This document shows positions 56,801-59,800 of a stretch of DNA of 64,000 bases, piece after piece. Numbering within the stretch: position 1 is the first letter of the stretch; every line of letters starts with the position of its first letter. Origin of the DNA: Adineta ricciae. Its lineage: Eukaryota > Rotifera > Eurotatoria > Adinetida > Adinetidae. The translations under genes were made by a program, and so were the position numbers. Under the pieces are notes generated by a model, which saw nothing but the letters and a program-made list of their open reading frames with translations, was not told where the DNA came from and made no database searches. The DNA lies in the NCBI GenBank assembly GCA_905250025.1, contig CAJNOJ010000008.1:1-64000 (forward strand), written 5' to 3'.

Positions 56801-59800
56801 TGTTTCTGATTTGATTCTTTTCGAAGAAAAGAGTTTTATTATTTGAATGATCATTGTTAATCGAATCTCATTTGAACATTACCTGAAGAATCTCTTTCTG
56901 TTTTATTTATCTAGCCGGGTACTAATGTTATCAGTATCAATTTCTTTCGTCTGTTTCGTGTCATGCGTTTGGTAAAAGTTCTCAGCCGTGGAGAAGGTAT
57001 TCGAACGCTATTATGGACATTCATAAAATCATTTCAAGTAAGTTTTATACCCGTTCGATGAAAGTGTTCTATATCTGATTATTTGTAGGCATTACCTTAC
57101 GTTGCTCTTCTGATTGCGATGCTGTTTTTTATCTACGCTGTCATCGGAATGCAGGTAAATGAGTTGAGACTTTCTAAGAACAAAAAGCAGTGGATTAGAG
57201 TGAAGTGGAGAGAGTTGATTTGCCCTATCGATAGAAGATGATCCTAACTGTGATCACTTGAAATGATAATAATCACATTTGAAATATTATTACAGCATTC
57301 ACAAAAACCATCGTGGTAAGATTAGCGATCGATATGACCTCTCTTTTTTTTTCTCAATATTTCACCGTCATCTTTCGACCATACAAATGTGGTCGCCATC
57401 ACAAATGTCATTTTTATGTCTCTCACAATTCTTGTCTACCCGTATTTGTAATAGAATTTATATATTCATATATATTTTCTTTTTATTTTATGCTTATTGT
57501 CATTATTACCCCTAGTTGTACGAATTCACAACAGAGAATATAGATGAAACAGTGAAACTTATCGAGAATATATTTCTAATGATGAGATCATCATTCGACA
57601 GATGTATGAGTTATAACGAATCACTGCCAGTCGTATATTATCCTATTGTTATCAAACTATTAGTATTCTATACCTGGAGAAAACTATTTAGAGATCGTTA
57701 TTTCCCTTCGATGTAATTGTTCTGACTCTTTCGAAATTGAACAGATCAATCGTATTTTCTTGGCCGTTTAGATGTTTGGTAAAATTGCCATGGATGAAGA
57801 TACAGAAATCAATTATAACAACAATTTTCAAACATTTTTCAATTCATTGCTTGTGCTGTTTCGGTAATTGAAATGGAATCACTTGTATGATGAATCAATT
57901 GAATTTCGTTTGAAATAGATCGGCGACAGGTGAAGCTTGGCAAGAGATCATGTATGCTTGTGGTCCAAGTGCCAATGCGAGATGTGACAGCCGATCACGA
58001 TCTCGAAAAGATGAATATTGTGGAAGTTATTTTGCGATTCCGTACTTCCTGTCGTTCTACATCCTTTGTTCATTCTTGGTAAGTAGAACACGAAAGCAAG
58101 TTTGATTTCCTATTCTGGATTGTCGATTAGATTATCAACTTATTCGTCGCTGTCATTATGGACAATTTTGATTACTTGACTCGTGATTGGTCTATTCTTG
58201 GTCCTCATCATCTGGATGAATTCGTTCGTCTTTGGTCCGAATATGATCCAGAAGCAAAGTAAGAAAACCGATATACGAACGCTGTTTCCTACTCTTTCTT
58301 TCACTGCTCAAATTGTAAACACACCCTGTCTATTCAAGCTAAAAGTTTAATCTACTAAAACTTCTCTCAGAGGTCGTATAAAACATCTGGAAGTAGTAAA
58401 TCTACTTCGAAATATTTCGCCACCGTTGGGATTTGGAAAATTCTGTCCTCATCGAACGGCGTGCAAGGTATACTCTATTGTTTAGATATTGTCATACATA
58501 TATGTATATACAATATTCAATGTCTCACATTCATTTATCTTTCACCTATCTTCATTCGACTTGTGTCGTCTTTTGTTATCTTGTTCATTTCGGTTATTCA
58601 TGTGCTTTTGTTGTTGTTTCATTCAGAGGACGTATCAAACATCTCGATGTAATCACACTATTGAGAAAAATCTCACCACCACTCGGCTTTGGCAAACTTT
58701 GTCCACATAGAGTGGCTTGTAAGGTACTAGTACATTGTCTTCTTTATCATAAAAGCTAACTTTCATTCTGCACGCACCAAAATATATCTTGAATACTTGT
58801 CTTAATCTTCTCTTTCAACTGTTTGGTAATCTTCATATTAGAAATTGGTATCGATGAATATGCCATTGAATCAAGATGGTACTGTTATGTTCAATGCCAC
58901 ACTTTTTGCACTCATTCGTACATCATTAAAAATCAAAACCGATGGAAATATCGACCAAGCGAATGAAGAACTTCGGGCGGTTATACGTAAGATTTGGAAG
59001 CGAACACCTCAGAAATTACTCGATCAAATTATTCCTCCGCCGGGCTCTGACGATGACGTGACGGTGGGCAAGTTCTACGCTACATTTCTTATTCAAGATT
59101 ACTTTCGTCGGTTCAAAAAACGTAAAGAACAAGCAGCGAAACAGGTGACACTGGGCTTTTCCGGTGCCAGTAAGAATTCAGTGGCATTACAAGCAGGATT
59201 GCGACAATTGCATGATTTGGGCCCCGAAATCCGACGAGCCATATCAGGAGATTTGGATGATGAAGAAACATTCAATCGATTCTGGCGTGAAGAAGAACCA
59301 CAACATCACGTAAGAGAGAACTTTTTTCTATCGAATAAACATCGATCGATTGTTTTAGCGAGATCATTCATTATTTGGTACAATGATTGATGCATTTACA
59401 CGTGCTATACGTAAGCCACAGCAAGTACTTGGCTATGTGCCTGGCTTTTCAGCAACAAATGTTGTCTCACCACCTCCACCACCAGGTACACGTCTTCGAC
59501 GTGAGCCAGACGGACCAGTATCAGTGAAAATTGAAGGTGATCCCAATTTTCATACGCCATCACCGTTTCGCATCGGGTAAAATGCTCATCTATTTTGCAT
59601 TTATATTGTTTCATCAGTCATTTCTTCTTATTTACAGAGCTATTACTGCTGAACGACGTGGCATCGAACCAGACAGTTATGTGTTTCAAGTACCGGAACA
59701 TGAAGAAGGGCCTTTGGGACCGTTGACATTAGAACGTCGAGGAAATATTCGCAAAGAGAGTAGTTTTCGTTATCGGTAAAAGATCTTCGCTATTTTCTTC

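Follow-up and report, generated by a model that had tools for sequence, protein, structure and literature searches.

The stretch analysed here (hereafter the window) comprises 64,000 nucleotides (nt) of the bdelloid rotifer Adineta ricciae, positions 1 to 64,000 of the forward strand of contig CAJNOJ010000008.1 (assembly GCA_905250025.1). It carries a gene that, judged by similarity and as the preliminary description had stated, is a Cav1 (L-type) alpha-1 channel gene: the spliced segment from the sixth transmembrane segment of repeat IV (IVS6) to past the IQ motif scored 385 bits to Cav1.3 and 382 to Cav1.2, against 196 to Cav2.2, and contains the Pfam domains GPHH and Ca_chan_IQ. Two adjacent exons of this gene, A and B, encode alternative versions of part of its EF-hand region and are the subject of this study. 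The contig of the window is called C8 below, and C77, C7, C13 and C1 are other contigs of the same genome. The features of the locus are the following (window coordinates).

58131-58258, + strand: upstream exon, common to A and B; IVS6 end, E helix and beginning of the EF-hand loop, ending in a split codon (AA)
58259-58370, + strand: intron before A, 112 nt
58371-58467, + strand: exon A, 97 nt; derived form of the segment (EF-hand loop end, F helix, linker), with K at the split codon
58468-58626, + strand: A-B intron, 159 nt; the final 50 nt lie within the longest stretch identical between C8 and C77 (58577-58734)
58627-58723, + strand: exon B, 97 nt; near-canonical version, with K at the split codon
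58724-58841, + strand: intron after B, 118 nt
58842-59310, + strand: downstream exon, common to A and B; second EF-like part, pre-IQ and IQ (Pfam Ca_chan_IQ)
51040-60691, + strand: Cav1 coding blocks matched between C8 and C7, covering repeats I-IV and the C-terminal tail; the true gene may extend further

Each of the two exons is directly preceded by AG and directly followed by GT, and their equal length and phase agree with the preliminary description, which had placed two such 97-nt exons within 58371-58723. They are identical at 70 of 97 nt, and of the 33 codons, 6 encode a different residue and another 15 carry synonymous differences only. Translation from 58215 to 59310 showed that the frame is open through the IQ region with A alone or with B alone, and that it shifts and meets stops when A and B are joined or when both are skipped; the earlier claim that the two are incompatible in one mRNA is thus upheld. 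A and B have the structural properties expected of tandem duplicated mutually exclusive exons: they are adjoining homologues, equal in length and phase, their splice dinucleotides are intact, and the frame is lost if both are included or both skipped. In a self-comparison of the open segments of the + strand over window positions 44000-64000, the in-frame match between A and B had an expectation value (E) of 8.7e-20. A-B was the sole high-identity neighbouring in-frame exon pair among the 10 pairs listed within 2.5 kilobases (kb), the other 9 being matches between S1-S6 repeats (29–34%), readings out of frame, stretches of simple sequence or matches that were short and weak; this limited comparison found no further tandem exon pair in the Cav1 gene of the window. 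The alternative segment has its start inside the EF-hand loop (DPEAK, split, GRIKHL); from there it covers the F helix and the linker that leads to the second EF-like part (helices and loop are labelled in part after PMC7235277). It had been described as lying between the EF-hand and the pre-IQ: it does reach toward the pre-IQ, but it begins within the EF-hand loop and so belongs partly to the EF-hand itself.

Exons A and B differ at 17.5 of 24.0 synonymous sites and at 9.5 of 72.0 nonsynonymous sites (synonymous divergence, dS, 2.7; nonsynonymous divergence, dN, 0.15; Fisher P 1.5e-7, with the Fisher tests run on rounded site counts). The corresponding changes between A of C8 and its counterpart in C7, a second copy of the gene described below, are 13 of 23.8 and 2 of 72.2 (dS 0.97; dN/dS ~0.03; Fisher P 5e-8), these exon dS values being near saturation and derived from 32 codons. 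Change is mostly synonymous in both comparisons, and exon A is thus a conserved coding sequence. With respect to the solved Cav1.2 and Cav1.3 channels, B is identical at 30 of 33 residues and A at 27; for B it is this match that argues for selection. At the six sites that differ between the exons, the Cav1.2/1.3 residue is found in B at four, in A at one and in neither at one.

A genome search identified three Cav1 loci at this segment, on C8 (the window), C77 and C7. The C77 copy is 94.8% identical to that of C8 over 10.7 kb, introns included (dS 0.129, dN 0.004; 1247 codons in 24 blocks), and would be best described as allele-like. It has both exons in the same arrangement, with AG/GT dinucleotides, open frame and 97-nt lengths intact in the two copies. 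Exon B is base-for-base identical between them (P ~0.05 for zero change in 97 nt) and lies within a 158-nt identical run (58577-58734), the longest of 475 such runs; this length is not significant, as 367 of 2000 random placements reached at least 158 nt, and special conservation of B was dropped as evidence. Several other ion-channel loci are present as near-equal pairs on separate contigs (e.g. C24/C35, C116/C244, C5/C2 and C71/C14), a pattern that resembles a genome whose homologous or duplicated copies were assembled apart. Bdelloids have a degenerate-tetraploid genome, which paired contigs would fit. The bdelloid telomere repeat had 38 matches and its reversed control 44, but as this control is the identical hexamer read in a different register, the counts carry no information.

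The third locus, on C7, is a diverged Cav1 copy (C8-C7 dS 1.58, dN 0.053; 1247 codons in 24 matched blocks). Downstream of the Cav1 gene, C8 carries an Hsp20/alpha-crystallin-like gene (window 63400-63999; Pfam HSP20, E 2.6e-9 for 63805-63999), and as C7:907342-907993 matches this stretch, the C8 and C7 copies are syntenic. The C7 copy has one exon at the place of the pair, C7:902110-902206, and this exon is of type A: it has the A state at 5 of the 6 sites that differ between A and B, and it shares 31 of 33 residues with A of C8, compared with 27 of 33 shared by A and B. C8 and C7 both have the A states E, V, N, F and T, despite the divergence of the two copies (dS ~1.6). The C7 copy, an otherwise conserved Cav1 gene, thus relies on exon A alone. 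No remnant of B was detectable in the 233-nt intron that follows the C7 exon, where 822 and 785 of 1000 shuffles reached the score of B under two scorings, and no B-like exon outside C8 and C77 was found among the best candidates listed by a whole-genome protein search. With vertebrate Cav1 as the outgroup, the order of events is most simply explained by a duplication before the C7/C8 split, followed by divergence of A and by loss of B in C7. At site 17, A of C8 and B both have S, vertebrate Cav1 has Q and C7 has T; the shared S would fit a duplication within the animal's own lineage. An open stretch in a long Cav1 intron of the window (57516-57720) has neither a match in the C7 copy nor a Pfam match.

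The preliminary description had likened the pair to the mutually exclusive exons 37a and 37b of vertebrate Cav2 genes and had left its origin as either ancient or repeated. The positional match is confirmed, since A and B occupy the homologous exon and have the same length of 97 nt; exons 37a/37b of vertebrate Cav2.1, Cav2.2 and Cav2.3 are the closest known counterparts. The pair nevertheless lies in a Cav1 rather than a Cav2 gene and does not descend from the 37a/37b duplication as far as its sequences indicate: both versions are Cav1-type, with only 13–19 of 33 residues identical to this genome's Cav2 and to Cav2.1, Cav2.2 and Cav2.3, and each of the two Cav2 loci identified, on C13 and C1, has a single 97-nt exon here, in the same phase as A and B. 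As the introns that flank these single exons are only 63 and 54 nt (C13) or 57 and 51 nt (C1) long, these loci cannot hold a second exon. The same 97-nt, same-phase exon in the Cav2 loci shows that this exon boundary is common to Cav1 and Cav2. Because A and B are Cav1-type and the Cav2 loci are single-exon, a second, independent duplication is favoured over an ancient shared one; the exon would then have been duplicated in opposite families, in Cav2 in vertebrates and in Cav1 here. The available part of PMC5818475 reports that the F-helix site of Cav2.2 is Y in exon 37a and F in exon 37b, that Y is found at this site in almost all bilaterian Cav2 and that it is a Src target in Cav2.2 exon 37a. 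By our own reading of the alignment, the V/I site of A and B (1548) would correspond to this Y/F site. The two Cav2 loci found in A. ricciae (C13:209163-209264, - strand; C1:483854-483958, - strand) carry F at this position (MFEM).

Tandem exon duplications have been surveyed in human and fly Cav genes, and the available part of that study counts ten independent events, all at different exons, with one Cav2 event in human (PMC9741552). Since the ten events affect different exons, none of the human or fly Cav1 events in that part of the study hits the EF-hand exon duplicated in Cav2. The main text of the study contains neither the word rotifer nor the word lophotrochozoa. The same source describes mutually exclusive pairs in human Cav1.2 and Cav1.3 (three events each), which belong to the same family as the present pair and are likewise tandem duplicated, but are not at the EF-hand exon. 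It also provides parallels to the C8 and C7 copies, as PGM1/PGM5, where one tandem exon was lost in one copy, and CACNA1F/CACNA1S, with split retention, are cases in which, following gene duplication, both exons persist in one copy and a single one in the other; here C7 retains the derived exon without the near-canonical one. We found no published account of such a pair in a Cav1 gene in the literature searched, a library without most subscription papers, and a search for bdelloids together with mutually exclusive exons returned 0 papers. No relatives were confirmed in the collections genome_contigs (90 pattern matches) and viral_contigs (7), which hold prokaryotes and viruses and are uninformative on other animals.

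The position of the differences suggests what the choice between A and B might change. Numbered from Q1555 of PMC10094977, four of the six differences (A/B) are at 1546 (E/D), 1548 (V/I), 1549 (N/T) and 1553 (N/K), that is, at the loop end and in the F helix, around VVTL, the motif that governs calcium-dependent inactivation; the remaining two are at linker sites (F/L and T/V). According to the available part of that review, replacing VVTL of the Cav1.2 EF-hand with MYEM abolishes calcium-dependent inactivation, V1548Y alone lowers it, and the region may serve as a transducer (PMC10094977). The choice between A and B would exchange the part that couples calmodulin to inactivation, from the last section of the EF-hand loop through the F helix to the linker toward the pre-IQ. 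The near-canonical exon B would be expected to give ordinary Cav1 calcium-dependent inactivation. Exon A would replace the D at the end of the loop with E, turn the F-helix motif VVTL into VVNL, put N in place of the next basic residue and change two linker residues; it is expected to alter, and probably to weaken or slow, calcium-dependent inactivation, the direction being a guess.

Taken together, we consider it likely, with good confidence, that A and B form a mutually exclusive pair of a Cav1 gene, which arose by tandem duplication, independently of the Cav2 37a/37b pair, on the homologous exon, before the C7/C8 split, and that B was subsequently lost in C7, leaving this copy fixed for A. 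Each mRNA would take A or B, and inclusion of both or of neither would shift the frame and yield a non-productive transcript. Several observations weigh against this interpretation. Mutual exclusion, demonstrated for vertebrate 37a/37b, is here deduced from the frame, and we found no mechanism that would enforce it. The A-B intron is not short for this gene: the three introns around the pair (112, 159 and 118 nt) exceed the median, 55 nt, of the 15 introns inferred in this copy, 4 of which are longer than 200 nt. Neither competing RNA structures nor similarities of the introns exceeded shuffled sequences in 8 pairing and 3 similarity tests; the best candidate structure, intron 3 with exon A, was rejected, as its score was reached by 27 of 200 shuffles. 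Exclusion may instead rest on regulators plus the loss of frameshifted products. Compared with 30 splice sites of the gene, the acceptor of A and the donor of B scored below all, the donor of A above 2 and the acceptor of B above 7; as the lone C7 exon, of type A, also has weak sites (acceptor above 3 and donor above 2 of the 30), weak sites are no mark of alternative use. The fact that B is unchanged from C8 to C77 carries little weight, the polarity of the A/B changes was set by vertebrate Cav1 and a few Cav2 sequences, the F of exon A at site 25 is also found in Cav1.1, and the V/I difference at 1548 is conservative.

Other explanations of the pair were weighed against the same data. The pair might set the amount of channel rather than its gating, with frameshifted mRNA sent to decay and nearly equivalent A and B proteins. 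The frameshifted products of double inclusion and double skipping, and the small number of residue changes, some of them conservative, speak for this explanation, but the clustering of four of these changes at the loop end and F helix and the retention of the five A states in both C8 and C7 suggest that the A version of the protein matters, and we regard it as unlikely. Somewhat less probable still is that one exon is a relic, B (or A) being constitutive and the other duplicate never used: the low scores of the B donor and the A acceptor would agree with this, but C7 has no version other than A and has conserved it, B retains most residues of Cav1.2/1.3, and both exons have kept their splice dinucleotides, frame and exact length in C8 and C77.

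The timing of the duplication allows two further histories. If it occurred after the C7/C8 split, C7 never had B, and B either regained canonical residues or came by conversion. The lack of a B remnant in the C7 intron and the S shared by A of C8 and B at site 17 are in line with such a late event; nevertheless, A of C8 is nearer to A of C7 (31 of 33 residues, dS 0.97) than to B (27 of 33, dS 2.7), and B would need to regain several canonical states, which makes this history about as improbable as a relic exon. A single duplication before the Cav1/Cav2 split, which gave rise to both A/B and vertebrate 37a/37b with losses elsewhere, would account for the same 97-nt exon in Cav1 and Cav2 of this genome and in Cav2 of vertebrates. 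It is hard to reconcile with the resemblance of A and B to Cav1.2/1.3 (27–30 of 33 residues, against 13–19 of 33 to four Cav2 sequences), with single-exon Cav2 loci whose flanking introns are 51–63 nt long, and with the absence of human or fly Cav1 events at this exon in the available part of PMC9741552; we consider it very improbable, and of the two origins first proposed only the repeated one is favoured.

Tandem mutually exclusive exons are of a known kind in Cav genes; what appears to be new here is a pair, most likely mutually exclusive, at the EF-hand exon of a Cav1 gene. More tentatively, and with some doubt on our part, the independent duplication favoured above may be a case of convergence, in which the same ancestral 97-nt exon was duplicated in Cav2 in vertebrates and in Cav1 in this invertebrate, placing a splice switch for calmodulin-dependent feedback at the same F-helix position, and in which, after genome duplication, the switch persisted in one copy while the other became fixed for the derived version. 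Being fixed for A, the C7 copy would offer a natural control with one isoform only. A repeat duplication at one exon would be unusual when set against the ten human and fly events at different exons (available part of PMC9741552). If true, this second duplication of one exon in the other channel family would point to the segment as one of the few places where splicing can tune channel feedback.
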